This document shows positions 3,201 to 20,016 of a stretch of 20,016 nt of DNA, one piece after another. A program made the translations under genes and the position numbers. Origin of the DNA: a virus. The DNA is taken from positions 1 through 20,016 of IMG/VR virus record IMGVR_UViG_3300030382_002416. One strand, 5' to 3'. Each line of letters starts with the position of its first letter. Within the stretch, counting starts at the first letter, position 1. Below the pieces are notes generated by a model that saw nothing but the letters and a program-made list of their open reading frames with translations, did no database searches and was not told where the DNA came from.

Positions 3201-3548
3201 TAATATATAATCATCACCACTACCTGTATGTCTTGTGTCTATAGTAACCCTATATCTTTTTCCAACAGTCAAACTATAAGGAGAACCATCTAAATCAACA
3301 TAAGTTCTATCTCCATTTCCGTCAGCTGTAAATTTTATAGCATAACTTCCATCAGTTTTAATTGTACTTTCTAACGTTATATCAGTATTTGTCCAAGTCT
3401 GAGTTCCGTCCACGGTATTTGATTCATTAACCACGCTTGTTGGATTAGAATCTGTATTTATATCTGTACCTATTGTTTGATAACCTGAAGAGGTATCTAA
3501 CGCCCTAGCTTTTTTCGGTACTTCTATTGTTTGTATTGTCGTCGCCAT
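201..3548 (-). CDS. Multidomain LamG / jelly-roll tail adhesin (probable tail fibre), 1115 aa
   Basis: This is probably a virion surface protein that binds host glycans. I see three LamG (concanavalin A-like lectin fold) modules at about residues 198-362, 695-873 and 955-1108. Each runs from a YxDxGxxDY-like or YVEVNNSDTL-like entry strand, through W-Y and LYLNG or IYVNG strands, to an xIGN or YMGN strand and a W/Y-D-x-x-L-T/S ending. Between and before them are carbohydrate-binding-like jelly-roll modules at about 40-184, 405-522 (opening ELVTNGDF) and 535-668. There is no signal peptide, transmembrane segment or enzymatic motif. Its ATG overlaps the TAA of the preceding adhesin gene as TAATG, which implies translational coupling. 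It ends in TAA, 11 nt before the next start. A role as receptor-binding fibre is inferred from domain content and position after the virion proteins. Tail spike or capsid decoration is the alternative. Confidence 0.8.
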   Translation of the reverse strand: MATTIQTIEVPKKARALDTSSGYQTIGTDINTDSNPTSVVNESNTVDGTQTWTNTDITLESTIKTDGSYAIKFTADGNGDRTYVDLDGSPYSLTVGKRYRVTIDTRHTGSGDDYILQFNSGNGLNTGAPQTAIATITSSDTTFVTYTYDFVYDYNMFRYFGIKENGGNDNAAGYLDNFTLYELALLPNNNHGQIYSGRGLEFDGVTDYLDTGYIASAQGITNDITVACWLRTTDVTASQYVFNFYQSTAEAFGLKIGSSTICIRNDVDNASANIYDTTISNNTWYRAVVVIDSLQMKLYLNGVLVGSGSSTADGLDSFTSNLYMGNRKGSGGTSYFTGMMSNLQVWDTPWSADDVTYDYLNPEKLVLNNTSGTSLTNSNLKLWYPMQDGHRGQQSYILDGANTGLGDELVTNGDFDTDSDWSYNASYWNISGGTANALGVANGGFYQTVSVKSGKTYKVQISSTITSGNGIYAVVLGTNSIIFDNNTSEITTYLAASGDDVNITVQPGASAFSMSSVSVKAINDKNHATTVFYGDEIWDGVQGDDANWDVFDNNTKAEDASAVKITYVDNASGGYIFLSDAKDLNADLVVGRTYIISFSTKVNQGSIIWRCLTSGGGTNALATAINSTSFETRTMTVVADHATNLYIHSNAMTTGDIVWIKDISVKEVGVASGWTDADQQLHIPQTALQSYNEMAWFPGVDPGTDISAKISDHASIDDIWTNGGTCSAWVYIASDGAGTMGRIFDKSKWLLYCYSESGSTCKLAYGIEHVTTNGTGQTTNRVLTYGNWYHIVMAYNSNSGATAPLIYVNGESVAVTEDTESAGSVTTDNGDHLFIGNRSNGERTFDGTITEVSLWDEILTQAEVLELYNDGKAFDASTHSQQTALICYVRNNGLATWSDLSSNSNDAVPTNLTETMLLPAGVDATRDNQGFLMNKQKDTSSLNLPYGTESGLIPGYVEVNNSDTLKLTGSYTIGVWVKLTLIGDAYQRIVALETGGNGTNGYGMYVHTDGKVYNACNANSQTSASAQVTADTWTYITVTADGTDKKIYVNGVQTDTESNANDAAATTSNLFIGKSPGVTDRQANGVIDGALIYNSALDSTEVLRNYNATKGSHTN

Positions 3549-4714
3549 TATGATAAAATTCCCTCGTTACCGTTAAATAATTTGACTGATATGTTACTTA
3601 TTGAGCCATTAAATACAGTGGAATGGTGCATAATGTTAAGGAAGTTAGTTCCAGTATTAATATTAACTATAAATTCATAACTACCATATGCATCAACAGT
3701 AGGAGTGACTTGTGAATTTCCTGGTGTTACCCTCATATTACCACTAACATAATTTGTTACATCAAATTTTACTTTTGCAACATTTTTTGCAAAATACGGA
3801 AAAGCAAGTCCAACATCTAGTGATAGTATAATTCCATAAACACTTCCTGATCCATCTGATGTAGCTACACCACTTGCAATGGTTACACCTGCACCTGTTA
3901 TCCAATACGTACCTGATGTACTTGCTGCTTGTGTACCTGTTAAAGAGAAATCCCCGTCAGTAATTAATTCACTACCTAAAGTATCTCCGCCATCATGATG
4001 ATTATCATAAACTACAATATCTCCATCACCTAAATCTGCTGAATCTATTACACTATCTAAATTCCACCATGATACTAAATTTGTTTTTTCGCTTGATGTT
4101 AAACTTGAATATTTTTTCCACATGATTGATTTGATTTGTGCTTGGGTTAATGCTGCATCCCATAATCCTACATTTGCCACCCTAGCATTAGTGTATCTAC
4201 TTGTGTCTGTTCCTATATATACTAAACCATCTGTAGTGGTTAAAGTCCTTGCACCAGAAGCTATTTCTACTCCATTTCTATATAATTTAGTTGTTGTTCC
4301 ATCATGTGTAGCTGTAAGAAATACCCAACTACCAAAATCTGAAGTTGAAGATGAGCTACTCGATAAATCGGCGCCAACACTACCAACTCTAATTGCCCAA
4401 TTTCCACCACTTGCAACTCCTATCACTATAGCAAACATAGTATCAGTACCTTGTTCATCGAGACACACAATAGGGTCTGCATCTGATGATGAAATGAGAT
4501 TTACCCAACAACTTACAGTCCTTGCAGAGTCTCCACTTATTCCACTATTACTCTTAGAAATTATATAATCATCAGTACCATCAAAATACGCAGCACCATC
4601 ACTTAGTGGTTGGACAGGGTGTAATCGATAATCATGCCTTAACACTAAATTATCAGTTACGATAGTTATGCCTGGGTTCCTAGAGGTTATTAATGAGTTT
4701 CTTAATCCTAGCAT
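3548..4714 (-). CDS. LamG plus jelly-roll domain adhesin, 388 aa
   Basis: This is a second modular binding protein, probably part of the tail fibre complex. A short N-terminal segment (1-38) could be the virion-anchoring part. A LamG module follows at about 40-200, with AAYFDGTDDYI at its start, KLYRNGVEIASG in the middle, LVYIGTD near the end and the closing W-D-x-A-L-T-Q-A-Q motif. Residues about 248-380 form a jelly-roll CBM-like module that opens GSELITDGDF, close to the GDELVTNGDF opening in the downstream adhesin. The region 118-125 is a Ser-rich loop. The gene starts 19 nt after the previous stop, behind an A-rich leader, and shares 1 nt with the next gene (TAATG). No catalytic residues are visible, so binding rather than hydrolysis is expected. 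The fibre role is inferred from context. Confidence 0.78.
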   Translation of the reverse strand: MLGLRNSLITSRNPGITIVTDNLVLRHDYRLHPVQPLSDGAAYFDGTDDYIISKSNSGISGDSARTVSCWVNLISSSDADPIVCLDEQGTDTMFAIVIGVASGGNWAIRVGSVGADLSSSSSSTSDFGSWVFLTATHDGTTTKLYRNGVEIASGARTLTTTDGLVYIGTDTSRYTNARVANVGLWDAALTQAQIKSIMWKKYSSLTSSEKTNLVSWWNLDSVIDSADLGDGDIVVYDNHHDGGDTLGSELITDGDFSLTGTQAASTSGTYWITGAGVTIASGVATSDGSGSVYGIILSLDVGLAFPYFAKNVAKVKFDVTNYVSGNMRVTPGNSQVTPTVDAYGSYEFIVNINTGTNFLNIMHHSTVFNGSISNISVKLFNGNEGILS

Positions 4715-5161: not shown

Positions 5162-8100
5162 TTATTTATACATAATATTAGCTCTATCTTTTCTTACTCC
5201 AGCAAAAGGAGAAATATCATATTTTAATGTTTTAAGCGCCTTACTAGAGCCTCTTTCTCCATAAGGTCCAGATCTTTCTATCTTTTCTCCTCTAGCCGCT
5301 TCACCTAACATTTGGAATGTGTTTTGTATTGTGCTATAAGAAGATGGTGTAATTCTATATCTAAGGAATCTATTAACATCTACAGTTGAATATACATCAT
5401 TTTGCAATCTTCTTAAATATTTTCTTGTTGCCTTACTAGCCTCATCATCATTATCATCTAAAACAGCTATTAGAGATATAAGCAAGAAAGTTAAACCAAG
5501 TCCTCTAACTGTATTTTCAATTTCTTGTTGCTTGCTTTTAGATAGTGATTTATATTCTTTTACTATACTTTCCATTGTCATTTCACCTTTAAAGAATTTT
5601 CTAAACATATTCATGGCAAATGATGATCCAGCTCTATAACTACCAACATTCACTTCTCCAAATCTATTGATATCTTCAGCAGAATATCTATCTCCTACTA
5701 AAGTAATAAACCATTTTTTAAATTGTAGTATTGCTCTACCATAAGAATACATAGATAATAATGTAGCATCCAAAGCAGTATATCCTTCACCATGAAGTGT
5801 AGCTATTTTATGATTTATATATCTAACTCTCTTATCTGAAATTTCTCCAGTGTTGAATTCCTGGTCTGTTAGCATGCCTAAGAATGCAGAACCTTGAATA
5901 TAATGCTCTGTCTGATCCATAAATATAAAGGATAAGTTTACAAGTTTTCTAAGGGGACCTTTCTTTTCGTTTACATGTACAAACTCATCAAAACTATATT
6001 GGACAACTCTATACTTTTTTAATAAGTCTCTTGATTTATAAAAATCTGTCCAAAATCTTTTCTCACCTGTAACAAATTGTTTGCCTCCACGTTTACGTAA
6101 TTCTTGATATTTACCAGCAAGTGTGTTTCCTAGGGCTATAGGAATACTAAAACCTAAGAATCTTAAAGATGCTATTTGGACAAAGCCATCTATAATTTTA
6201 TCTACTGTCTTTCCAAACATTCCCACTCTTGTTTTACCTTCTATAAATCCTTCTTTCCACCAACCTGTTAAATATTCAACCGCATTCTTATTATCTAAAT
6301 TCTTATTAAAGGCTGTAACTGAATCTATTAAAACAGCTAAATTAGCCATTCCAGTAAATCCTCCATCTTGTACTTCTGCATCTCCGTGCATAAATAGAGA
6401 TCCTCTTACAAACTCTAACAGTGAGGTATTAAGATCATATGAAGCTTTTTCGATACTAACCCCTCTTCTTCTTTCATATTCATTTATAATATCAACATCT
6501 ATCTCTTTTATTCCCTTAACCTTTTTATTAGCCATTCTTTTTAGGGCAGCTCCATTATTTACCAATGCATCATATTCAATATCTGATAATAAAATATCTG
6601 TACCATCTTCATGTTTACCCCTATCTTTTAATGCTTTAGCTTTTCTTCTTAGTTTATCTAGTTCTGTAAGTTCTATAGCTCCACTAATTCTTTTAGTTCT
6701 ACCTTTATAAACAGAATGCTTCCACTCATAAAATGTTTTAAGTGCTCTTTTACCATCTACATCTTTACCATATACTTTAACTCTATCATAACTACTTGAA
6801 TCAGTTGAAAGATTATATAATCCAAATAAACCACTTTTAAACATAGATTCAATTGTTCCCATTTGCATATTAGGAACAAGTGTTTCTGATATTGCAGCTC
6901 CAGATTTACTTTGAACTCTCTGGAATAAAGACACCATTGATTTATATGTGCTATAATATTCTCTTTCTGCCTTACTTAAAGAATCCCAAACTTCTGATAT
7001 TTCATTTTCATCAAGAAGTCTAATATTACCATTTTCTACTGTAGTAATATTTCCATACAAAATTTTATATTTATCATTTACATCAAAAACTTGCTTCACT
7101 TTTTCTATAATTGTTAACTTTCTGTTTTTAGACTTTACTAAAGCATTGTGCTTTCTATTAATTAATTCTTTATAAACTCTAAATCTTCTCATATACTTCA
7201 TATACTCTTTTTCTGCTTCGTTGATAAGGTATTGAATCTCAGGTCTGTCGGATGTCATATTGTTTGAACCAAACCACTTTCTAAAATTAGATATATCATT
7301 TTGCGGTACACCATCTTCACCAGGAACATTATATTTATATCCTTGTTTGGCTCCAGCATCTCTTAGAAATTCTGTTTGAATTTTAAATGCTCTTTGACCT
7401 ATCTCTTTCTCTAACATTTCTGCAACACCTTTAGTGGCAGAGTGATCCATCTTTCTAAACTCTGCAGCTTTTTGTATAAGCTCATCTATTGTAAATTTAG
7501 AAAGAGGCTTTTTAGTTTTTACATAACTTATATATTCTTGTGCTAATTTTAAGTCATTCAAATAAGAATTGTATCTATTTTCAAGATGAGAATGTATATC
7601 AGATTCTTTATCAATAATATCAATATTAATTCCTTTATCAGCATTCCACTGTTTAAATGTTAATTTTTGTACGCCATCTCCTAAATAATCTCTATTATAA
7701 GATCTATTAGGTCCAATAACTTTTTTGCCTTTTCTAATTATTCTATTATTTCTAGAGGAATCACTAATTTCTCTATCTAAAGAATATCTGTCTACAGGAT
7801 TATTTACTTGAAATATTGCTATATTTAATTCTGGTGAAATACCAGGATCGCCTTTCACCTTTCTTTCTTGGTCTTCTTTTACAATTGTCTCTATTTCTTT
7901 ATTTATAACATTCATATAGCTTTCACTAAAGAAAGGAGCAAATGAAGTTCCTGTCAATCCAAATCCATTGAATTCAAATTCCAATTCAAAAATAAGATTC
8001 TTGCCTTCATCATTTAATTGATCAAAAGATTTTCTAATATCCTCTAATGTTTTGTAATTAGTAAATGCATTTATTTCAGCATTATTAATAACTATTAGTT

Positions 8101-11100
8101 TCCTACCTTTAGCATTTTCAACAACCTCTAATACGTTCTCTAAAAAGAAGTTACCCTTATTATCTTTCTTTAGTTTATCAAACTCTACTAATAAAGTTGT
8201 CCTGTCTCTTGCCCCATGTAATAATGATATGTTCTGTTTAAGATGATTTTTTACAACTTGATTTATAATTGCAGATTTATTATCTCTATGTTTTTCATCA
8301 AGTAAAGCCCTAGCTTTCTTTGAAAATACACTTTGCATATAAGGAGTGAATCTTATATCTGTTGCAGAAGCCCTGTTAAGCACGCCGTTAAATAATCCCA
8401 TTGCATGTGTTACAATATTGCTATTAACAGTATTACCCATTTTATAATAAAGATTTAAACCTCCTTTATCTTTTTTATTTATAATAACCTCACCATCTAT
8501 AATTTCTTGTATATTTTCAGTGATGGTTTTTAATTCAATAGGATTCTTTTCAATACTTTTATGCACAGTAAAAGCTTTAGAGAAAGGTCTTACAATATCT
8601 TGATTATATTTTTCTAAAGCATATAACATTAATACAGCATCAAGTTCTGCTGTTTTATCTCTTTTAACTAAATCATTTATATTTAAGTCAATACCTTCAT
8701 TTATTCTATTTCTTAATTTTATCCAAGCCTTATTGTTATATCCTTCTTTAAATTCACCATATTTATCTATAAAGGGCTTTGTTAAAGATGTGATTCCTTT
8801 TGTTTTCAAAAACTCTGTAAGCTCATTAAAATTAATTGTATCGTCAGCTAAAAACATAGCATCTATATCGCTATCTTTAGAAATATAATTTTTACTTCTG
8901 CTTTTCTTAAACTCCATATATTCTTTAACAACAGGAGAATTAAACAATACTGTTAAATCATTTAATGAATAACCAAGTCTTCTAAGAAGTACATAAGGGA
9001 ATACACTTTGTTTACTTAATCCTAACTTACTAGCATACTGATGTTTAGCATTGTCTAATACTATATTAAGAAGTTGTGCTACACCAAACCAATTACCTAT
9101 ACCATTTTCTAAAGTCCCCGTGGCAGTAAAATCAGAAAAATGTGTCATTTTTTCATATTGGAGGCGTACACCATTTATTGTTATATCAAATGGTAAAGAT
9201 TCTTTATTATTAGAAAATATATTAAAGGCACCTCCAAGAGCAGCAATAGTCCCAACCATTTTTTCTACTGGTACATTATTTTCAAACATTTCAGCATCAC
9301 CCCATGGAGTTAGCTGAGATTCTTTAGATGTTTCTGCCAGTTGTAATACTTCATTTCTTTTTTCTATAGCATTTTCAGCATCTTTAACAAAGTCTATATC
9401 CGCTGTAAGCTCTGAGAATTTAGTATCCTTGCTTACTAAATCTATATACTTATCAAGGAATTCATTAGACCAACCTCTCCATTGTTTTTTAGCCACTTCC
9501 TCTTTTGTATATTTAAAATTCATATGTATAGAATCTCCATCTAAATCAGCTCCCCAATATTTACTCACCCAAGCAGGAATAGTAATAACTGATGTTGGAG
9601 ATGTACCCACTTGTTTATGAAAATCTTTCACAATAAATACAGCACTACTCACTTTTCCGTGTGCAGGAATCCTTGTGCCTATAAATAAGCTCCCTACAGT
9701 CACTCCGTTCCTTTTTAGGTACTCAGGTACTACAGCTTCAGATATAAGCGTATTAGGCTTTGCTTCTGTGTCTTTACTTCCATATACTATTTTTTCTAAT
9801 TCATATCTTAATTTTTTACCTTGAGGAGTTTTGCTTTCTCCTTTATATGAGCCATCTTCATTAAAATAATCACTAGCTCTTTGATAGGATTTTAATCCCA
9901 TACCCAAACTAGATGATTGATAAGCAATAGCTCCTTTAGTATACATCTTAGTACCTTTATGAGCAATACGACCTGTAGCAATAGAATTATAAGGGGCATT
10001 TAAATAAGGATACCTAGGATCAGTGAATCCATACATTGATTCTACAAGCACGCCAAACACATCTGCATTCACTGAAGATTTAAAAGATTCTCTCTCTGCT
10101 AATACTTGTTCTTGTGTGGCTCCCTCTTCTGTAATAAGACCTTTATTTCTTTCTTCATTATTAGCATTCATTACCTTCTCTCTCAAAGCATACATCTCAT
10201 TTATGATAGTTTGCTCATCTGTTGTAATATTAGTTGCTAAATTATAGAACAGCTGAGAAGGAAAAAATCTTTCTGATGCTTGTTTATCTAATTCTAACTG
10301 TATTCCTAATCCTTCTCCAGACAATCCTTGATAAGTTCTAAGCTCACTATCTTTATCTCCAATCATATAGAGTTCATCTTGCTTATCCATAATACCTTCC
10401 ATAGTCTTCATACCAGCTTTTATAGATGGATCAAAAACAGTTTCTAACATATCTGTTCTTAATTCTATAATATCTCTTACATCATAAATATGTTCATCGG
10501 TTCTAATTCCATCTTTAAATAACTTAGCGCCAGATTCAGAAACTGCAATAACTAAATTACCATGAGAATAAATGTTTCTACCATCAAACTCTGGTATAAC
10601 TGTTTCAGATATTCTTTTATGTCTTTCTCTTAATATATTTCCTATATTTCTTAAATGTGGACTGCTTGCTTCCATCTCTGGTGTAAGAGTATGTACAGCA
10701 AATTTTAGATATGTAGATTTCCCTTTTAATTTAGGATTAGCTATTTCTGTATAATGATATACAAATTTAAACACGCTTCCAACTTTTTGAACTTCTCCAT
10801 ATTTAGATCTTATTGCTTCTGCTTGTTCTGGTAAAACATATCCCATAGCATCATTTTCTACAGCAACCTTATCTTTCCAATTATCACCAAATTCTTCTTT
10901 AGCTTCATCTTCTGTATAAATAGTTTTATCATCTTTACCTACATAATAGTCTTTAACCACAACAGGTTCTACCATAGTATTTCTGTCATATACAGTATGA
11001 CTTGCTATAGCTCCAGCAGCTCTTTTTATATAATCAATTTGATTTTCAGATTGTCTATGGTCATGAATAAATAACTGTTGAGCCATAAACTTATTAGCAA

Positions 11101-14100
11101 TATAAGATGTTAAGAAAGCATCATAAGCTTGTGTTCTATTTTTAATGTTTTTATAATCCTGATTACCTAAAAATAAATCTTGATTATCTCCAATATAATT
11201 ACTAAATTGTTTTACAAGTTTAGGCATCTCTTTAATATGGAGATTACCATCTCTTTTAACTATAGTAAAAGGAAATACCCTATCTCCATTTTTGTATTTA
11301 CCTTTATAAGCAGGATTATTTTTGACTTTAGAAAGTAAAAGATTTTTCATCTTTTGATTATGAGCCATAACACTTTCTATATAATACCTTCTGCTTTTAT
11401 CAGAAAATACAGCCATAGCTTGATCATAAATAACAATATCTTTATTTAATCCAGGATTATATCTTGACAAGAACATAAAGAAATCATTAGCTAATAATTC
11501 ATTAGGTGTAAGATCGTTTAACTTAGCAGCTAGTTCTTCTGACTTAACCCCCTCAGTATCAAAAAGAAAGCGTCTCATTAATCCAGAATTAATAGTAAGT
11601 TGTAGTGGATCTTTAATTACATGACCTTCTTTATTTGCTAATTTACCCATCTTCTTTAATGCATGTAATTTAGAAGCAAATATATTAGTATTAGGATGCA
11701 TAATATCTGTTTCTTCTATCACTTGCCCTTCTTGTATAATTTTAGCAATATTCTTTATTCTATTATGTAAACCATTTTCTTTATTCATTATACTTACACC
11801 ATCTTGTTCTACATTATCTACCATAGATAAGTAATTCATTGCTCTTGATTGAACAAGACCTTCTGTAAGGATAATATGTAATTCACCTTGACCTACTAAA
11901 TTACCTTTTTTAGTTTTTGCTTTAAAAAATCCTAATGGATTATATTTCTTTGTTTTATAAACAAACTTATCTTTACCTCCCCATGCCATAAACTCTGAAT
12001 TTTTTAATACAGGATTTTTATACTTAGGATGTATAGTATGCTCAAATAAAATATCATGCAAATACTTTCTTTCTCCTTTAAATAGAATTCTATTATTTAT
12101 TAAAGCTTGTCTATTTATTAATTTACCTTTAGGGTTATCAGACAAAAGTATATCTAATATTTTTTCTGCAGCAACGATTCTATCTATTTCACTATTTGGA
12201 TCTTTACCTTTTTTAAAGAATAATTCATTATATACATCAGCTATACGTTTACCATAATCATCTTTATTTTCTTGAATAGTATCTTTTAAATTTCTTATTG
12301 CACTATTTTCTACAGATGAACTTATAGTTTTATATCTATCCCAAGATCTTACACCACCCTTACCTACTTTCAAAACACCATGTGTAAGAGTCTCTATAGT
12401 TGTTCCTTCTATTGGAGCTTTTATTTCTAATAATTTAGCGTTAGTAACCACTGGATCTTTATATATATCATCTAATAAAGCTATCATAGATACTATTTCG
12501 TGATTATCACTTTCTCTAAGTTTACTAGGAAATACATAAGGATCATACATAGTTTGTTTTGCTATAGCACGCAGATTATGTAATAGCTGCTTTGTTTCCA
12601 TTGGAACAGGATTCTCTCTATTATAAACCTCTACAATCTTTCTAATAAAATGTGATACTGTTGTTGGTAATGCTCTAATCTTATTCTCTTCTTTATATTT
12701 CTGACTTGCATCTTCAGAAGCTTCTGTAATTCCATCATCAACTTTTGATTCTCTACCTAATCTTTCATCTAATATCTTATCTGCTTCTTTCAATTTTGCA
12801 GACTGTGTTCTTTGTGTTATTACAGCTTTTATATAATCTGTCAACACTTCTGCATCTTTAACATCTAATCTTGAATCTTCAGATACATCTTTTAATACAT
12901 TATTAGTCATCTGATCAACAGTAAGATTACGCCCAATATAATCTCCTATACGAGTAAATATAGCAGGATGTGTTGCTGTTTTAGATAAATTCTTTTTCTT
13001 AGCTTTTCTAATCTCTGAATAAGCAGAATTCTGAGCTGTAGGAATAGTTCTTTCTCCTGAATTAAAATCAAGCAATATATGCTTAATAGCTGCTTCTAAA
13101 TTTAAATCAGCTATATTATCAACAGATAAGTCTAAGAATCTTTTAGCTTCTTCATCAGTGGCTAAATTCTTTGTTTTCTTATAGAATGACATTAGATCCT
13201 TTCTTAATTGTTCTTGTACCTTAGAGTCCTTTATAATAGCGTCTATAGTACCATAAGAGTAAGCTTCTAATGTTCTTGTAAATGTTTCCTCTAATAAATG
13301 CTTTTGTTGATCAATTCTAATTTCTTTAACTCCTTGTAATTTTAATTGAATTCTTAAAGATCCAAATAATTCATTCATCCTATCTGAATTCTTTGTTTTT
13401 TCAGCTTTTCTTAATTCTAGAACAATACTCTTAATATCACTTTCTATTTCTTCTTTGTTATTAATGTTATCTAAATAATATCTATAAAGATAACCAAGAG
13501 TTACTTTTCTTCCATTAAAATTCATTAATGTAAGTTCAGGATATTCTTCTCTAGTACGCTGGAATAAATCAGTTTTATAAAGCAGTTTATTAATTCTTTT
13601 CATTAATGCAGTATCCTGCATCATGGAATAGTAAACGTGCCCAAGCTCATGTATTAAATCTGATTGACGAATACCTTCTTCATTAATCATTACAGCAGAA
13701 CCTATTGCTAATGCAGCTGATTCTTGACCATAATCATCTACTAGTCTTGACGAGACTACAAATCCTCTTTCACCAGGAAATTGCTTTTGCATTATATTCT
13801 GAGTTAAGGCATAAGCACCTAATCCAGAATCTAAATAAACTTCTAAGTTATTTTGGAATCCAAAAGAATCAATATCAGGAACTTCATCAAAAGATTTATT
13901 AAGAAGCTTTTGTATATTTTCTTTTGTTTCTTTGATTGCATCTAAAACTCTTTTAGCTGTTCCTTTAGTTTTAGCTTTCTTAGCTTTTTTAATAGGTTCT
14001 TTAGCTTTATAATCTTGATATTGTAATTGACCTACTACTTTGCCACCAGATACAACCTCTGTAATACTACTATATAAAGGTGCTCCTTTTTTGAATTGGA

Positions 14101-17100
14101 AATATAATTTACCATTAACTTTAACAACATTAGCTTGTCCAGCTACAGGCTCTACAAGACGTAATTCTATATCATGTTTACCTGCTATTAGTTCATCAGA
14201 CTTTCCTGTAAAGTCTTGATAATTTATTGATTTACCATCTGAAGTTGTTAGGATATATGTGTTAGGACCTTGCCCTTTTGAAACTTCTGCTCCTTTTAAT
14301 AATAAGGGAGCTCCTTTTTCTTTTATAGCTTTTTCTATGGATTCGTATTCCTTAGTCTTAGGAATTACTTCAGCTGCTTCAACTTCACCAATGCTTGATA
14401 ATTCTACTATAGAGTAACCTTTCTCTGTAGACATTTTAACATTAGCACCTGTAGGAAGGACTTCATCTTCTCCCACACGTCTCCAGCCTTTGGGAATTAC
14501 TTCGGTTTTATCTTTTTTTTTTACTTCTTCTTGAGACTTTTTAACTAAATTTTTATATTCTTTTTCTGTTAGTGATTTAACTGGTAAACCGCCTCTGTCA
14601 TCTCTAGCTAATTCACTCACATTAAACAAAATAGTTCCATCTTCAAACTCTTCTATTCTAAATCTATAATCAACCCCATCAACCGTTACTGTATCTGAAT
14701 ATTCTTTAATAGGCCTTCCTTTGCCTTGCATTTCTTCAGTTTTGGCATATTTTGATTTTTTACTATCTTTTATTATTTTAGGAGTAATAGTATCTTCTTT
14801 AACTTCTACTTTCTCTTCTTTTTTCTTAAATTTTTCTTGTACTTTATCAAGGATAGAATCAATAGAGCTTTTACCTTTATCAGAAGTAATTTGACTTATA
14901 AGAAAATCTCTATGTTCTTGTTCTGTTAAATTTGGATTTTCTTTTAACTTTTTCTTTAAAACATTTAAATCACGATCTATTAACTTCTCCAATACATTTT
15001 TAGCTTCAGCATCAGATAAATTGAAAGTTTCTTTTATAATATTTATCCATTCTTGATTCTTCCCAGCCCCTTTTTTCATTAATTCTTTTGCGGCCTTATC
15101 ATTACCTTTTTTTATCTCTTCAATTATTTTTCCGTATTCTGTTCTATTAATTATTTTTTTTGAATCTTCTATAATCATTCTTCTTGCCATAGATTTAGTC
15201 TTTTTCTCTAAAGCTTTTTTAGATATAGATCCTAATTGTGTAATTGCTCCACCTACAATTTCCTTAGTACCTTTAAAAATTTTACCTGCTAATTTTCCAG
15301 CACGCTCAAATACAGATGGTTTTTCGGCTTCTTTAGCCTCTTCTGCTTTAGCTTCTGCTTTAGCTTCTTCTTCTGCTCTTGTTTCAGCTTCTTTTTCTCC
15401 TTCTTGTGTATAAGCTTCATATTCATCTTTAGATAATCCTCTTATTTTATATCTCTTATCTCTAATACCAGTGGATTTAGCAACAGGAGCATCATCTTTC
15501 TTTCGCTTATAAATCATCTCAAGTTCTTTTTTGAGATTAGCCTGTTCTTCTAAAAGAACATTCATAACAGCTTCATGATAAGCTGTATCGTCTTCTAAAG
15601 CTTTTTCTAATGCTTTTTTATCTGTTATCTGACTAGACTTCTTTTTAACTAATTCATCATAATTAGCTTTTTCTTCTGCTTGTTGCTTTTCATTTCTTTT
15701 TAATCTTGTTTCTCTAAAGAATGCTTGTTTAGCTCCAGCTTCTGTAAGTCCTGTATTTACAGCATGTTTTTCATAAGACTTCTCAGCTTCTTCAATAGCA
15801 GCAATATATAAGTCTGCTGTCTCCTGATCCATTTTTTTATCTTTAACTTGCTTATTGACATACGATATTAATCCAGAACCATCACCATAATAATTCCAGA
15901 GTTCTCTTGCTATTATATTATCTTGTACATATTTTTCATTTTCATAAGTAACAGCAGGATTTTGCTGATCATTTAATAAATCTATATCATTATTTAACGC
16001 ATCTACCTTTTCATTATATAATTTATTTCTCATCGCTGTAGCATCAAATACACCTCTAGCTCCACCCATAGCTCCACCCATACCTACAGATGACCAAAAT
16101 ATATCTCTTAGTTCAGGTCTATCTTCTGCAAAAGGTGCATCTTTAAACCATGTTGTTAGTTCTTCGTAATCTTGACCTTTAGCTTCTTGTATTACTGAAT
16201 ATTTAAGCCATTCTTGATAAATTTCCTGATATCCTTCTGTTAATCCTTCAATAGATGCATAAGCGGCTGTAGCAGGTACTAAAGGAGCCACCTTATTATA
16301 TCCCCAAGATGCAAGGCCTGCAATACTTGCTTTAAAAGGAATTTTCTGAGGATTTGTTCCAGACATTAATCTTTTAGTTAAACTTTTTCCCATACCTCCA
16401 AATAATATACCGTATTGTATAATATCTACTCCAGCCCATGCAAAATTCCATCCAGCAACTCCACTTGCAATACTTGCTGCTTCAGATGGCGTAAATAAAG
16501 GATTACCCTGATCATCTACATCAGTTAGCATTTGATTATATGCTTCACCAGAAAGATAAGCACCTTCAGCTAAATTGGCAGTAACACCACCTCCTATATA
16601 TCCAGACCAATTTCTTAAAAGTTTTGTAGGTAGCATTCCTCTTCTTCCTGCATCAAAAGCTAATTTTCCTACAGCTCCAGTTCCTGACACTCCAAATTTT
16701 CCAGCCTGCCCAATTACACCTATTTTTCTTGCCTTATTAGCTGTATTAAGTTGTTTTGCTGACCACAAACCAAATCTACCTAATAATGCTCCTCCAAATC
16801 TTGCTCCTGCAGTATAAGGAACCATAAAAGATAATGCATAAGGAAGTAATCTAGAAAATTTAGAAGACCAAAATTCACCTTTAAGTAAATCATCCCAAGT
16901 CATATCTTGAAGGTCTTCAGATAAAATAAGAACATTATCATTTTTATATTCTTGTCCTACATCTTTAAGCCAAGAACCAATTGATGTAGTTGGATCAGCT
17001 TCTCCTGGTGTAGCCCAAGCTGATATCCAATCTACAGTATCGCCAGTACCATATACTAAATCTCCCCATCCTGCTTTTAATCCTCTTTGAAATCTTGTTC

Positions 17101-17446
17101 CTGCTTGACCAATCATAGCACTAGGATCAATAATTTGTTGTTCAGGATTTACACCAAATCGCATTTCACGAAAAGGAGCTTGTTCAGCAGCTGACTCTTG
17201 TTGTGAAGCAACACCCTCAAAATAACGATCCATTGATGAAGGACCATCTTGAGTGAGTCTTACACTGTTTACTATATCGCTAAATGTAGCTTCTCCTTCT
17301 TGAGGCTCATCATACATCTCTTGTATATCTTCTTCAGGAGTATTTGGAGTTGTAGTAGCTGCTTGTGCTCTTTCCCCTAATAAAATATTTAAACCAGAAG
17401 TATAATCTTGTGGTGATGCATTATTTTTCTTATTAATCTCTGCCAT
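5162..17446 (-). CDS. Giant virion protein with zinc-metalloprotease and RNA polymerase-like double-psi barrel domains, 4094 aa
   Basis: Probable ejected internal virion protein that carries an RNA polymerase. Regions in order: a disordered start (1-100). Glycine/alanine-rich hydrophobic stretches at about 200-470, including LLPYALSFMVPYTAG at 200 and EGLTEGYQEIYQEW at 400-413. A Lys/Glu-rich coiled-coil region at about 470-960, with an Ala/Glu/Lys repeat near 682-707. Small beta-rich segments at about 950-1180. An HELGH zincin motif at 1266-1270. A long unrecognised helical region at about 1400-2450. RNA polymerase-like motifs from K2497-K2504 through R2592 to D2634/D2636/D2638. A further helical region to the end, with hydrophobic segments at 3758-3778 and 3982-3996. 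The ATG overlaps the upstream gene by 14 nt; there is no Shine-Dalgarno sequence. The gene ends in TAA. Comparable ejected polymerases are N4 vRNAP (about 3500 aa, but of T7 type) and the phi14:2 crAss-like polymerase (about 2200 aa). The coding sequence is certain; the RNA polymerase call is good but unproven, and most of the chain is unassigned. Confidence 0.85.
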   Translation of the reverse strand: MAEINKKNNASPQDYTSGLNILLGERAQAATTTPNTPEEDIQEMYDEPQEGEATFSDIVNSVRLTQDGPSSMDRYFEGVASQQESAAEQAPFREMRFGVNPEQQIIDPSAMIGQAGTRFQRGLKAGWGDLVYGTGDTVDWISAWATPGEADPTTSIGSWLKDVGQEYKNDNVLILSEDLQDMTWDDLLKGEFWSSKFSRLLPYALSFMVPYTAGARFGGALLGRFGLWSAKQLNTANKARKIGVIGQAGKFGVSGTGAVGKLAFDAGRRGMLPTKLLRNWSGYIGGGVTANLAEGAYLSGEAYNQMLTDVDDQGNPLFTPSEAASIASGVAGWNFAWAGVDIIQYGILFGGMGKSLTKRLMSGTNPQKIPFKASIAGLASWGYNKVAPLVPATAAYASIEGLTEGYQEIYQEWLKYSVIQEAKGQDYEELTTWFKDAPFAEDRPELRDIFWSSVGMGGAMGGARGVFDATAMRNKLYNEKVDALNNDIDLLNDQQNPAVTYENEKYVQDNIIARELWNYYGDGSGLISYVNKQVKDKKMDQETADLYIAAIEEAEKSYEKHAVNTGLTEAGAKQAFFRETRLKRNEKQQAEEKANYDELVKKKSSQITDKKALEKALEDDTAYHEAVMNVLLEEQANLKKELEMIYKRKKDDAPVAKSTGIRDKRYKIRGLSKDEYEAYTQEGEKEAETRAEEEAKAEAKAEEAKEAEKPSVFERAGKLAGKIFKGTKEIVGGAITQLGSISKKALEKKTKSMARRMIIEDSKKIINRTEYGKIIEEIKKGNDKAAKELMKKGAGKNQEWINIIKETFNLSDAEAKNVLEKLIDRDLNVLKKKLKENPNLTEQEHRDFLISQITSDKGKSSIDSILDKVQEKFKKKEEKVEVKEDTITPKIIKDSKKSKYAKTEEMQGKGRPIKEYSDTVTVDGVDYRFRIEEFEDGTILFNVSELARDDRGGLPVKSLTEKEYKNLVKKSQEEVKKKDKTEVIPKGWRRVGEDEVLPTGANVKMSTEKGYSIVELSSIGEVEAAEVIPKTKEYESIEKAIKEKGAPLLLKGAEVSKGQGPNTYILTTSDGKSINYQDFTGKSDELIAGKHDIELRLVEPVAGQANVVKVNGKLYFQFKKGAPLYSSITEVVSGGKVVGQLQYQDYKAKEPIKKAKKAKTKGTAKRVLDAIKETKENIQKLLNKSFDEVPDIDSFGFQNNLEVYLDSGLGAYALTQNIMQKQFPGERGFVVSSRLVDDYGQESAALAIGSAVMINEEGIRQSDLIHELGHVYYSMMQDTALMKRINKLLYKTDLFQRTREEYPELTLMNFNGRKVTLGYLYRYYLDNINNKEEIESDIKSIVLELRKAEKTKNSDRMNELFGSLRIQLKLQGVKEIRIDQQKHLLEETFTRTLEAYSYGTIDAIIKDSKVQEQLRKDLMSFYKKTKNLATDEEAKRFLDLSVDNIADLNLEAAIKHILLDFNSGERTIPTAQNSAYSEIRKAKKKNLSKTATHPAIFTRIGDYIGRNLTVDQMTNNVLKDVSEDSRLDVKDAEVLTDYIKAVITQRTQSAKLKEADKILDERLGRESKVDDGITEASEDASQKYKEENKIRALPTTVSHFIRKIVEVYNRENPVPMETKQLLHNLRAIAKQTMYDPYVFPSKLRESDNHEIVSMIALLDDIYKDPVVTNAKLLEIKAPIEGTTIETLTHGVLKVGKGGVRSWDRYKTISSSVENSAIRNLKDTIQENKDDYGKRIADVYNELFFKKGKDPNSEIDRIVAAEKILDILLSDNPKGKLINRQALINNRILFKGERKYLHDILFEHTIHPKYKNPVLKNSEFMAWGGKDKFVYKTKKYNPLGFFKAKTKKGNLVGQGELHIILTEGLVQSRAMNYLSMVDNVEQDGVSIMNKENGLHNRIKNIAKIIQEGQVIEETDIMHPNTNIFASKLHALKKMGKLANKEGHVIKDPLQLTINSGLMRRFLFDTEGVKSEELAAKLNDLTPNELLANDFFMFLSRYNPGLNKDIVIYDQAMAVFSDKSRRYYIESVMAHNQKMKNLLLSKVKNNPAYKGKYKNGDRVFPFTIVKRDGNLHIKEMPKLVKQFSNYIGDNQDLFLGNQDYKNIKNRTQAYDAFLTSYIANKFMAQQLFIHDHRQSENQIDYIKRAAGAIASHTVYDRNTMVEPVVVKDYYVGKDDKTIYTEDEAKEEFGDNWKDKVAVENDAMGYVLPEQAEAIRSKYGEVQKVGSVFKFVYHYTEIANPKLKGKSTYLKFAVHTLTPEMEASSPHLRNIGNILRERHKRISETVIPEFDGRNIYSHGNLVIAVSESGAKLFKDGIRTDEHIYDVRDIIELRTDMLETVFDPSIKAGMKTMEGIMDKQDELYMIGDKDSELRTYQGLSGEGLGIQLELDKQASERFFPSQLFYNLATNITTDEQTIINEMYALREKVMNANNEERNKGLITEEGATQEQVLAERESFKSSVNADVFGVLVESMYGFTDPRYPYLNAPYNSIATGRIAHKGTKMYTKGAIAYQSSSLGMGLKSYQRASDYFNEDGSYKGESKTPQGKKLRYELEKIVYGSKDTEAKPNTLISEAVVPEYLKRNGVTVGSLFIGTRIPAHGKVSSAVFIVKDFHKQVGTSPTSVITIPAWVSKYWGADLDGDSIHMNFKYTKEEVAKKQWRGWSNEFLDKYIDLVSKDTKFSELTADIDFVKDAENAIEKRNEVLQLAETSKESQLTPWGDAEMFENNVPVEKMVGTIAALGGAFNIFSNNKESLPFDITINGVRLQYEKMTHFSDFTATGTLENGIGNWFGVAQLLNIVLDNAKHQYASKLGLSKQSVFPYVLLRRLGYSLNDLTVLFNSPVVKEYMEFKKSRSKNYISKDSDIDAMFLADDTINFNELTEFLKTKGITSLTKPFIDKYGEFKEGYNNKAWIKLRNRINEGIDLNINDLVKRDKTAELDAVLMLYALEKYNQDIVRPFSKAFTVHKSIEKNPIELKTITENIQEIIDGEVIINKKDKGGLNLYYKMGNTVNSNIVTHAMGLFNGVLNRASATDIRFTPYMQSVFSKKARALLDEKHRDNKSAIINQVVKNHLKQNISLLHGARDRTTLLVEFDKLKKDNKGNFFLENVLEVVENAKGRKLIVINNAEINAFTNYKTLEDIRKSFDQLNDEGKNLIFELEFEFNGFGLTGTSFAPFFSESYMNVINKEIETIVKEDQERKVKGDPGISPELNIAIFQVNNPVDRYSLDREISDSSRNNRIIRKGKKVIGPNRSYNRDYLGDGVQKLTFKQWNADKGINIDIIDKESDIHSHLENRYNSYLNDLKLAQEYISYVKTKKPLSKFTIDELIQKAAEFRKMDHSATKGVAEMLEKEIGQRAFKIQTEFLRDAGAKQGYKYNVPGEDGVPQNDISNFRKWFGSNNMTSDRPEIQYLINEAEKEYMKYMRRFRVYKELINRKHNALVKSKNRKLTIIEKVKQVFDVNDKYKILYGNITTVENGNIRLLDENEISEVWDSLSKAEREYYSTYKSMVSLFQRVQSKSGAAISETLVPNMQMGTIESMFKSGLFGLYNLSTDSSSYDRVKVYGKDVDGKRALKTFYEWKHSVYKGRTKRISGAIELTELDKLRRKAKALKDRGKHEDGTDILLSDIEYDALVNNGAALKRMANKKVKGIKEIDVDIINEYERRRGVSIEKASYDLNTSLLEFVRGSLFMHGDAEVQDGGFTGMANLAVLIDSVTAFNKNLDNKNAVEYLTGWWKEGFIEGKTRVGMFGKTVDKIIDGFVQIASLRFLGFSIPIALGNTLAGKYQELRKRGGKQFVTGEKRFWTDFYKSRDLLKKYRVVQYSFDEFVHVNEKKGPLRKLVNLSFIFMDQTEHYIQGSAFLGMLTDQEFNTGEISDKRVRYINHKIATLHGEGYTALDATLLSMYSYGRAILQFKKWFITLVGDRYSAEDINRFGEVNVGSYRAGSSFAMNMFRKFFKGEMTMESIVKEYKSLSKSKQQEIENTVRGLGLTFLLISLIAVLDDNDDEASKATRKYLRRLQNDVYSTVDVNRFLRYRITPSSYSTIQNTFQMLGEAARGEKIERSGPYGERGSSKALKTLKYDISPFAGVRKDRANIMYK
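5459..5503 (-). other. Hydrophobic segment near C-terminus of giant protein (residues 3982-3996)
   Basis: The stretch G-L-G-L-T-F-L-L-I-S-L-I-A-V-L is uninterrupted hydrophobic and is followed directly by the acidic D-D-N-D-D-E. It is the most transmembrane-like segment in the protein, although at 15 residues it is short for a full bilayer span. Confidence 0.5.
6113..6175 (-). other. Hydrophobic segment in giant protein C-terminal region (residues 3758-3778)
   Basis: The stretch starting I-A-S-L-R-F-L-G-F-S-I-P-I-A-L-G is about 21 residues long and mostly hydrophobic, with one Arg near its start. It could be a membrane-interacting helix used during ejection, or a buried helix of a packed domain. 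Confidence 0.45.
9407..10009 (-). other. RNA polymerase-like catalytic double-psi beta-barrel motifs within the giant protein (residues ~2480-2680)
   Basis: D2634-L-D-G-D2638 sits in the context W-G-A-D-L-D-G-D-S-I-H-M-N. In bacterial beta' the equivalent is N-A-D-F-D-G-D-Q-M-A-V-H, where the three Asp hold the catalytic Mg ion. RNA-silencing polymerases and their relatives carry D-L/Y-D-G-D. At 2592-2594, R-I-P-A-H-G lies 42 residues upstream of the first Asp; beta' has R425-A-P-T-L-H, 35 residues before D460. At 2497-2506, H-K-G-T-K-M-Y-T-K-G-A-I resembles the beta-subunit D-K-M...N-K-G-V-I segment that supplies the two catalytic-centre lysines, but with four fewer residues between the lysines. 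The combination of three motifs in the right order argues against chance. Domain limits are approximate. Confidence 0.72.
13247..13774 (-). other. Zincin-type metalloprotease motif region within the giant protein (residues ~1225-1400)
   Basis: H1266-E-L-G-H1270 is a classic HExxH zinc-binding and catalytic motif, preceded by S-D-L-I and followed by V-Y-Y, as in the active-site helix of zincins. A possible third zinc ligand is E1386 or E1387 in L-L-E-E-T-F-T-R-T-L-E-A-Y. The roughly 116-residue gap is longer than in most gluzincins, so this assignment is tentative. Possible roles are cleavage of the giant protein during virion maturation or peptide-bond cleavage in the host after ejection. The sequence does not decide between them. 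Confidence 0.65.
14513..14522 (-). other. A10 homopolymer in the coding strand (possible slippage site)
   Basis: Ten consecutive A residues on the coding strand span the last base of GTA (V975) and three AAA codons (K976-K978). One extra A leads to TAA after residue 979. One fewer A leads to TAA after residue 982. This is the longest A-run I noticed in the window. It lies in a linker before the protease domain. Confidence 0.6.
15326..15402 (-). repeat. Ala/Glu/Lys-rich degenerate coding repeat
   Basis: Residues about 682-707 of the giant protein are a short-period Glu-Ala-Lys run (E-E-E-A-K-A-E-A-K-A-E-E-A-K-E-A-E). It is encoded by near-repeats seen on the plus strand as variants of GCTTCTGCTTTA. 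It probably forms a charged single helix or coiled-coil spacer between the hydrophobic N-terminal part and the enzymatic part. Such tracts can expand or contract by slippage. Confidence 0.6.
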
Positions 17447-19565
17447 GATAATATTTTGCCATTTGCCTGCTTAAATAATTTGTTTTCCCTATTGATGATT
17501 TATCTAATCTAGATTTTCTCCATTTATCGTATGCACTAGGACCACCATTAATTGCTTCTAACATATCTGGCATTTGCCCACTATTTAATCCTAATTTTAA
17601 TTTTTGTGTATAATGAGCCATATATTCTGAAGAACTATTTGCTACTATTGTTGGTCTACCATTTTGATTTTTCTCCATAATAAATGGATACTCTCTAGGT
17701 TTTTGTGATTCTAAATAAATATCTGAAATTAACATTGGCATAACAGCATTAGTTTTCTTATTAGAAACACCTGCATTAAGCAGACCTACAGATAAATTTT
17801 GACTATAAGCATCAACCACTTCATCAACAGCAGCAGTGTTTGGTAGATTTAAATCATTAGCTAATTTTGCTTTTAAGACAGCTTGTGTTTTATTTTTCTT
17901 AGCTGATATTTTGTTTCTTTTATCTAAATCAATCATTTCACTCTTCACTTCATTATAATTTTCTTTATCAAACTTCTCATTAATTGCCATTTGAACATTA
18001 GCATTAGATAAATCTACTTCATAATAAGATTGATCTCTATATGTTAAAAGATCACTGTCTTCAAGTTCAGCAACTATTGTATACTGTACTTCATAAGTTT
18101 TCCAATGATCTTTTATCTTTTTCAAATCTGCTTCATTTGATACATCTGTTATTAACATAGTTGTAGAATTACCATCTCCATCTTTACCAACTACCTTTGG
18201 CACTACGTGATAACCAAGTAATTTTAAATCTGCTGTAGCAGCTTCTTCATCTCCTGTATAAAAATAGTTTGATTCTTTAGGCCATTTATCTATATCTCTT
18301 TCTTGTCCAAATATATTTTCTGTATCATCTTGCGTAATTTTATGTCCCATTGCATTAAATTGTCCTTTCATAGGAACATTATAAAGCATTCCATCTTCAG
18401 GATCATATTCAAGATCTTTAAATACAGCTGCTGTAATATTATCAGAAACGCCTGGATTAGCAAATATTCTAGGACTTGCTATTAGTTGATGATCTTTTGC
18501 AAACCAACTTTGTCCTAGTAAACCTCTGTCCCCAGGACCAACAGTATTTGAATTTTCATCAATACCACCTAAAAATGAAAAGTCAGCTGTATGATTTTTT
18601 GCAAATTCTCTATTAAAACTTGATCCGCCTTCTTTAATAGCTAATAAATCATCTATTGTTGTAGCAGTGGAATTTACACCTTTTAATGCCCTTACAAGAT
18701 CTGTACTGAAATTTGTATCAAGTTCTGTTTCTCCATACATTGCTTGAGAATATCCGTCTTTTGTGAAATAATCTAAACCACCAGATTGAGAATGTCCAGT
18801 ATTAGTTGTCACCCAGGTTTTAATATCTTGCTCTGTAAGACCAGCTACATAAGCATCAGGATCATCAGGATTAATATCTAATACCATATCTTTAATTATA
18901 GAACTATAATTATGTGTTATTACATCATCAAGTGTAATGTTTTGTGATTTAGATAATTCTGCTAAAACTGGATTTGATAAATAATCACTTCTCTCTCCAG
19001 CATATCTAAAATAATCTGTTTTGCCTTCATTCCATTCTTGAAATCTTTTATGAGCATTTGCTGGGATAAGTTCAAACCCACCTGCAATTCCACCTTCTCC
19101 TTTCCCTTCATCTAAAGCTCCACTATAGTAAAGTTCTACAGCAGCTTTATTTTTATTAACCCTTTGAGATATTGGATTGTTTTGTACATTATTTTTATAT
19201 TCTTGTAAAACATAATCTAAATTACCATGTAATCTTGCATTTTCTACACTACCATATTGTCTTAATAAAGCTTGAATATCACCCCATCCAGACATATCTC
19301 TTTGCCAATCTTTAAAATCTTCTACATCTTTTTGTCTACGAAATTTTTGATCTTTCGTATACAAAGCTTTCATTGCTGCTGTATGACTAGCATTTACTTG
19401 TTCTTGTAATCCTTTTGTGTTTTCAAGATTTTTAAGCTGCATTTGCTTCATCTGCTGCATTAACTGCATAGCTTGCAATTGCTGCGCATCTCTATTTTGT
19501 GCTCTCTGACCTGCTGTCTGCATAGGACCAGTTAAAGCACTCCAATATCCAAAGTCTAAAGCCAT
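17433..19565 (-). CDS. Probable internal virion (ejection) protein, 710 aa
   Basis: I do not recognise a named family. Residues 17-56 are a Gln/Met-rich predicted coiled coil (Q-Q-L-Q-A-M-Q-L-M-Q-Q-M-K-Q-M). A Trp- and charge-rich helical part follows (about 70-130), and then a mixed alpha/beta body with Asp-rich loops. There is no signal peptide, transmembrane helix or enzymatic motif. Its length is close to T7 gp15 (747 aa), and it occupies the same place: after a small Gln/Met-rich protein gene and before a giant protein gene. That makes an ejected core or tube-forming protein the most likely role, by context only. The ATG follows the upstream TAA after 1 nt, and its TAA lies 14 nt inside the giant gene, so the three genes are probably translationally coupled. 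No Shine-Dalgarno sequence is visible. A tail tube or scaffold component is an alternative. Confidence 0.78.
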   Translation of the reverse strand: MALDFGYWSALTGPMQTAGQRAQNRDAQQLQAMQLMQQMKQMQLKNLENTKGLQEQVNASHTAAMKALYTKDQKFRRQKDVEDFKDWQRDMSGWGDIQALLRQYGSVENARLHGNLDYVLQEYKNNVQNNPISQRVNKNKAAVELYYSGALDEGKGEGGIAGGFELIPANAHKRFQEWNEGKTDYFRYAGERSDYLSNPVLAELSKSQNITLDDVITHNYSSIIKDMVLDINPDDPDAYVAGLTEQDIKTWVTTNTGHSQSGGLDYFTKDGYSQAMYGETELDTNFSTDLVRALKGVNSTATTIDDLLAIKEGGSSFNREFAKNHTADFSFLGGIDENSNTVGPGDRGLLGQSWFAKDHQLIASPRIFANPGVSDNITAAVFKDLEYDPEDGMLYNVPMKGQFNAMGHKITQDDTENIFGQERDIDKWPKESNYFYTGDEEAATADLKLLGYHVVPKVVGKDGDGNSTTMLITDVSNEADLKKIKDHWKTYEVQYTIVAELEDSDLLTYRDQSYYEVDLSNANVQMAINEKFDKENYNEVKSEMIDLDKRNKISAKKNKTQAVLKAKLANDLNLPNTAAVDEVVDAYSQNLSVGLLNAGVSNKKTNAVMPMLISDIYLESQKPREYPFIMEKNQNGRPTIVANSSSEYMAHYTQKLKLGLNSGQMPDMLEAINGGPSAYDKWRKSRLDKSSIGKTNYLSRQMAKYYHGRD

Positions 19566-19566
19566 A

Positions 19567-20016
19567 TTATTGATTAGGATTTACTGTATCAAAGAGTTTA
19601 GTTGTACCCCCTCCTTGATACATTTGCATCATTTGTCTAATAAGAGCAGAATTACCACCTCCAAGGCCTGACATTAAATTACTAAAAGCAGCTGAGGTGA
19701 ATTGTGCTGCTGATTGTTTATTCATTAATTGCATTTGCATATCTTCAGCTCTTAATTTTTCAGATCGTTGAGCTTCAAAGTTTTCTTTAAACATCATTGT
19801 ATCAACATATTTATCTTGATTTTCTCTTTGTAGGGCTGCATCTTGTGTTGCAAAATCTAATAATGCAGATGAACGTTTAGAATCTAGTATACCAGATTGA
19901 GCTAAGAACTTTGCTCTATCACCTGAAGTTCCTCTAACAGCATTATCTAAACCTTGTTCATAAGCAGCATCAATCTCTTTTCTAATTTTTCTAGCTTCAG
20001 CAGGATGAAATCCTTT
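19567..20016 (-). CDS. Partial small internal virion protein, 5' end outside the window
   Basis: The frame that ends with TAA at 19569-19567 has no stop up to the window edge, giving 149 visible residues. The ATG pair at 19797 and 19794 is internal: the 73 upstream codons read as ordinary coding sequence (K-G-F-H-P-A-E-A-R-K... then A-L-L-D-F-A-T-Q-D-A-A-L-Q-R), and the protein is helical throughout. The C-terminal half is Met/Gln/Gly-rich (M-Q-M-Q-L-M-N-K-Q, then M-S-G-L-G-G-G-N, then M-Y-Q-G-G-G). It lies 1 nt upstream of the 710-aa gene. Small size, Ala/Gln-rich helices and position recall T7 gp14, an ejected internal core protein, but this is analogy of context, not visible homology. Confidence 0.7.
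   Translation of the reverse strand, partial: KGFHPAEARKIRKEIDAAYEQGLDNAVRGTSGDRAKFLAQSGILDSKRSSALLDFATQDAALQRENQDKYVDTMMFKENFEAQRSEKLRAEDMQMQLMNKQSAAQFTSAAFSNLMSGLGGGNSALIRQMMQMYQGGGTTKLFDTVNPNQ

Follow-up and report, generated by a model that had tools for sequence, protein, structure and literature searches.

The window, a 20,016-nt stretch of viral DNA, encodes a 4094-aa protein, P0001, which is best explained as a probably injected, crAss-type single-chain polymerase of the two-barrel type that also carries zincin-like and gp65-like modules; we put the probability of this reading at about 0.88. Giant fused polymerases being an established hallmark of Crassvirales, P0001 belongs to a known enzyme class, as a divergent representative, and is not a new kind of enzyme. 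New are its lineage, the DLDGDxxH form of the motif and the set of modules that its one chain unites. The evidence comprises homology, a fold match, motif conservation, fusion and the gene context in relatives.

The polymerase region of P0001

The P0001 reading frame starts with ATG, has no internal stop and holds in order an N-terminal module, a zincin-like site, an RNA polymerase and a gp65-like C-terminus (Table 1). Residues 2480-2680, encoded by bases 9407-10009 of the minus strand, contain IAHKGTKMYTKG (K2497, K2500, K2504), GTRIPAHGKVSS (R2592) and WGADLDGDSIHM (D2634, D2636, D2638). An earlier note on this DNA had recognised here a polymerase active-site motif, R-I-P followed by A-D-L-D-G-D-x-I-H-M, with a spacing of 42 residues. 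This number is correct as the distance from R2592 to D2634 (39 positions in phi14:2) and incorrect as a gap, RIP and ADLDGD being 38 residues apart. The motif itself is real. Two scans of viral contigs produced 25 homologs with 41-58% identity to P0001 (3.7-4.1 kaa where complete) and a distant relative, L034 (24%); no relative was found in genome contigs. All 25 homologs carry R-[IV]-P-[AS]-HGK ... ADLDGD-x-[IV]-HMNF, and no other 60-residue block of P0001 is as well conserved as residues 2581-2640 (mean 0.85). Since it is kept in every homolog and lies in the best conserved block, the motif can be judged, from these alignments, to exceed chance. K2500 and K2504 are invariant across 24 sequences; together with R2592 and the three aspartates they show little or no variation among the homologs. 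The distant relative (L034:2864-13721) shares the P0001 layout and has SDHDGD in place of ADLDGD, within the block RLPTSKG ... GSDHDGD.

Table 1. Features of the window and the tandem element of related phages (residue numbers refer to P0001)
Feature	Position	Strand	Basis
P0001, giant protein, 4094 aa	5162..17446	-	intact ORF; 25 homologs
C-terminal module, residues about 3740-4050	5297..6229	-	homologous to C-termini of phi14:2 gp65 and crAss001 gp49
RNA polymerase, residues about 1595-3216	7799..12664	-	two AlphaFold models; profile match to 16 Crassvirales polymerases
Helical segment after catalytic block, LDNAK at 2797-2801	8897..9079	-	equivalent of phi14:2 VDNAK
Catalytic block, residues 2592-2642, R2592-IPAHGK ... 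A-D2634-L-D2636-G-D2638-S-I-H-M	9521..9673	-	homologs; Crassvirales alignment
KGTKMYTKG, residues 2497-2505, presumed beta-like barrel lysines K2500/K2504	9932..9958	-	conservation
HELGH, residues 1266-1270, zincin-like metal site	13637..13651	-	HExxH conservation
N-terminal module, residues 1-700	15347..17446	-	alignment A5, lineage-conserved
P0005, 710 aa, adjoins polymerase gene upstream, 14-base overlap with its start	17433..19565	-	homologs in the same place in G001-G004, G006
149-aa C-terminal fragment of next gene	19567..20016	-	BLASTP to G001_34, G004_54, G006_28
Tandem 22-nt element pair	L039:4145-4294; L065:1387-1518; also L059, L062, L064		

Single-sequence searches of PHROGs, Pfam and PDB with the whole protein gave no match, the polymerase profile (A2), run by hmmsearch against PDB, gave chance matches only, and Pfam scans of the A2 members returned only families at chance level. 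Among annotated phages, tblastn found six weak hits (E 0.02-0.7), all to crAss-like phages or their close company; in the four hit records examined, a RIP...DFD[IV]D polymerase block lies within or beside the hit. A set of catalytic segments from 16 Crassvirales-type polymerases, phi14:2 gp66 and crAss001 gp50 among them, gave 99.2% probability over 548 columns in a profile-profile comparison (E 1.6e-19, for a single comparison). The probability was 98.0% with the motif masked and 96.7% with both barrel regions masked, and all controls (reversed, ten column-shuffled and three other-region profiles) stayed below 1%. The homology of P0001 to Crassvirales polymerases extends beyond the motif.

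The catalytic block aligns with RIPTQG...GSDFDID of Crassvirales, and LDNAKHQY of P0001 with VDNAKDPY of phi14:2. An ungapped count from the shared G-x4-Q-x-S places K2500 opposite K in phi14:2, crAss001, DAC15 and cr111, R in jaberico and D in cr53_1. The second lysine, K2504, is not retained in the sampled Crassvirales. They carry D[FL]D[IV]D, in contrast to DLDGD in P0001, so DLDGD cannot be called the form typical of crAss and RNA-silencing polymerases, as had been proposed.

An AlphaFold model of residues 2085-3250 (moderate confidence, pLDDT 71.7, pTM 0.61) has a sole significant match in PDB: 6VR4, the structure of phi14:2 gp66 (E 1.7e-14; VIA-align Z 14.3 over 812 residues, to 6VR4 residues 820-2008). 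The next matches, RDR2, QDE-1 and RNA polymerase II, have Z of 4-5. For a second model, residues 1190-2140 (pLDDT 73.9, moderate confidence), 6VR4 is again the sole significant match, with Z 11.5 vs 4.3 for the next one, and residues 1595-2140 align to its residues 235-895. Matches in a viral structure library are mostly annotated as crAss-like phage proteins. The two models together make the region colinear with gp66 residues 235-2008; the polymerase therefore spans about 1595-3216. The earlier note had named an unrelated fold as the outcome that would overturn its reading; structure prediction and profiles, through 6VR4 and the Crassvirales profile, came out for a polymerase, and its assignment to the phi14:2 group stands. 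There is no division into beta and beta' chains: a single chain is colinear with 6VR4 across both halves, and three related contigs showed no further ORF matching D[FLYHW]D[GIVN]D. The observation that separate beta and alpha subunits are missing was accurate, and it carries little weight, since this polymerase class is single-chain and their absence is expected.

Modules flanking the polymerase

The proposal that the polymerase is fused to other functions is borne out by the gp65-like C-terminus (by profile), the zincin-like HExxH and the N-terminal module. The N-terminal module was also matched in the distant relative L034 (98.0%), with no match among ten sampled Crassvirales proteins.

HELGH sits upstream of the polymerase, within the conserved region 1190-1595, and HExxH is retained in every close homolog covering the site. 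The region had no Pfam hit, and hmmsearch of PDB with its profile (A3) gave chance matches only. It had no fold match among the matches listed, which is still compatible with a known fold. Since L034 has EELGH where the other relatives have HExxH, the site may be dispensable. One homolog (L014:2981-15280) has a second HExxH, HETIH, at ORF residue 1058, about 250 residues before the conserved one; this copy is confined to L014.

The C-terminal module, which includes a hydrophobic stretch by hydropathy (residues 3978-3996), matches a profile of phi14:2 gp65, crAss001 gp49 and DAC15 gp77 (hhalign 97.8%, E 9.9e-13, 300 columns; controls below 1%). A Pfam scan of the members of its alignment (A4) gave only families at chance level. 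The gp65 family in turn matches the Intestiviridae giant polymerases with 99.9% (E 1.3e-35), and the C-terminal profile of P0001 itself matches them with 84.6%. Suoliviridae have the homolog of this module in a gene of its own, and carry HExxH in the polymerase chain instead. Each pairwise fusion is already known in Crassvirales, and the combination found in P0001 appears, by sequence comparison, to be absent among the records sampled.

Gene context, lineage and a candidate early element

P0005, which adjoins the polymerase gene, is cargo-like by position. The full-length homolog of the 149-aa fragment next to it, in G006, contains a phage tail lysozyme domain (Phage_lysozyme2, E 5.8e-15). Three related contigs (65-68 kb) were examined over their whole length. 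Family scans found Crass_capsid (E 1.5e-37), crAss_MUZ (E 3.7e-134) and CrAss_Ring_1 (E 5.4e-16) in G006, with the ring protein taken from G001, and in G006 also TerL, portal, DnaB, a Rad52-type annealing protein and an HU/IHF-like protein. The gene order in relatives is muzzle, a 412-aa protein, the lysozyme-bearing protein, a protein of ~700 aa and the giant polymerase. Crassvirales capsid, muzzle and ring genes and the syntenic block are found in these related contigs; as the contig of the window measures just 20 kb, its structural-gene context is attributed by kinship. Its own genes are consistent with the muzzle, cargo-like and polymerase order of the relatives, in agreement with the virion-protein operon originally proposed.

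Twelve contigs scanned for Terminase_6N had no match; TerL of the relatives was identified by PHROGs. In a 12-row TerL tree, with an uncertain root and long branches, they form their own branch beside Steigviridae, Suoliviridae and Intestiviridae, and Flavobacterium phage Fpv1 falls among these three families. The lineage of P0001 can tentatively be placed, from sequence, as a deep branch of its own near Crassvirales. Since host-type promoters (TTTG-N19-TAnnTTTG) were not above chance in three relatives, a Bacteroidota host is presumed from kinship alone.

Two adjoining genes at 201-4714 of the window (minus strand; 1115 and 388 aa) consist mostly of LamG/concanavalin-like domains and probably code for tail fibres or adhesins. 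The ends of the 68-kb contig G001 (L035:96-2989 and L038:5402-8312) hold similar, non-identical sets of genes (a DnaB-like helicase, an annealing protein and neighbours), explained either by a duplication or by an assembly in which two strains overlap.

Six related phages carry, just ahead of their presumed early genes, two copies of a 22-nt element, about CTAATATATTTAGCTGATTAAT, in the same direction. The copies are spaced by 110-113 bp in five relatives (G004, G005, G006, G014, G016); G001 has a diverged pair 109 bp apart (L037, near 19658 and 19767). A conserved TTGACATTGTCAA palindrome lies between the copies in most of the six. For G004 and G006, 0 of 60 resampled sequences contained such a pair at <=3 mismatches, the pattern having been derived from the same, mutually related genomes as those tested. 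A third copy was discounted, as it appears to lie within a small ORF reading ...IYLAVQ.... The tandem element seems to be conserved and is a candidate promoter or operator of the virion polymerase.

Alternative readings, proposed role and known systems

P0001 could be a polymerase-derived structural or ejection protein that kept the fold and makes no RNA, the phage being transcribed by host RNA polymerase. Its location among virion genes and the distance of its sequence from every characterised polymerase speak for such a protein, but the (nearly) invariant aspartates, R2592, K2500 and K2504 at 41-58% identity look like those of a working site, and we regard this account as improbable. Smaller still is the chance that P0001 is a tape-measure-fused virion polymerase of a different two-barrel branch from a long-tailed phage, as in Thermus phage P23-45. 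Its gp96, likewise giant, is a protein of the virion and combines DFDGD with a metallopeptidase and membrane segments (PMC10770324), whereas the capsid, muzzle and ring genes of the relatives are of the crAss short-tailed type and the fold match to 6VR4 covers two regions; gp96 is also absent among the matches listed, which alone excludes nothing.

Independent acquisition of an RNA-silencing polymerase (QDE-1/RDR), outside crAss phages, has a negligible probability. RDR2 (Z 5.0) and QDE-1 (Z 4.4) do stand directly below 6VR4, in a range of Z 4.2-5.0, but 6VR4 has Z 14.3 over 812 aligned residues vs 5.0 over 323, and the gene context in relatives is that of crAss phages. The QDE-1 kinship that had been drawn from DLDGD is seen here only as weak structural matches, the link running through the crAss clade. 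Equally negligible is a chance motif in an unrelated ejection protein: although single-sequence searches of PDB, Pfam and PHROGs gave no match, the profile match holds up when the motif and both barrels are masked, and two models separately find 6VR4. We considered and rejected the tape-measure polymerase of the P23-45 kind, the QDE-1 relative and the chance motif as explanations.

For the crAss-type polymerase, we infer catalysis, packaging, injection, early transcription, protease action and the host. The catalytic site would be formed by D2634, D2636, D2638 and R2592 in a beta'-like barrel, which a beta-like barrel carrying K2500 and K2504 would adjoin. Like its relatives, P0001 is probably a cargo protein of the particle; by analogy, injection is the likely use of the polymerase. 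It would be pushed with neighbour proteins through the muzzle-type tail into the presumed Bacteroidota host, entering ahead of or with the DNA, and would then transcribe the first phage genes without host RNA polymerase. The zincin-like site may process P0001 or another ejected protein. We speculate, at rather long odds, that the N- and C-terminal modules aid envelope crossing, that the protein's own zincin-like site frees the polymerase and that transcription by the polymerase begins at the tandem ATATATTTAGCTGATTAAT elements before early genes. If so, one injected polypeptide would perform much of the opening act of infection.

The crAss virion polymerase would be extended to a lineage without a sequence match in Pfam, PHROGs or PDB, and since the polymerase of this lineage matches no entry there, such polymerases are probably under-annotated in metagenomes. 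The presence of HExxH, polymerase and gp65-like module in one chain supports the idea that gp65/gp49 and the polymerase act jointly. With the candidate early element there is a concrete sequence for testing what such a polymerase recognises.

Giant fused single-chain polymerases, of up to ~6000 aa, are normal for crAss-like phages (PMC10136315). The sampled Crassvirales include polymerases of about 4,250-4,775 aa, so the length of P0001, which the earlier note took to be unusual, is not. Particles of crAss001 contain gp47, gp49 and gp50, RNAP-associated proteins among them, and its arrangement of muzzle, cargo and polymerase (PMC10172136) resembles the muzzle, cargo-like and polymerase order of the relatives.

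Gp66 of phi14:2 (6VR4; Cellulophaga phage, Steigviridae) is reported to be a virion protein that transcribes early genes (PMC7886860; PMC8375218). It shares with P0001 the colinear fold, RxP ... DxDxD, the DNAK segment and the K2500 equivalent, at 11-14% identity in structural alignment, but has only 2180 aa, DFDID and no HExxH. Steigviridae encode gp65/gp49 as a separate RNAP-associated protein (gp65 of phi14:2 directly follows gp66), whereas P0001 has the homologous module fused at the C-terminus of its chain. Suoliviridae cr53_1 gp57 (4645 aa) is of similar length and has HExxH upstream of the polymerase in one chain; unlike P0001, it has DFDID, its TAG codons are read through and a separate gene, gp56, encodes the gp65-like C-terminus. 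Intestiviridae cr8_1 (4422 aa) and Rudgehvirus jaberico resemble P0001 in that one chain holds both the polymerase and a gp65-like module at its C-terminus. In contrast to P0001, the Intestiviridae giants carry DFD[IV]D, and in Rudgehvirus jaberico it is the preceding gene that is annotated as a metallopeptidase (ZnMc). P23-45 gp96 was shown to make RNA, and the authors assign it to a different branch of polymerases (PMC10770324); for all its likeness to P0001, it belongs to a long-tailed phage and has a flat, clamp-less polymerase at the N-terminus of the tape measure protein (PMC10770324).
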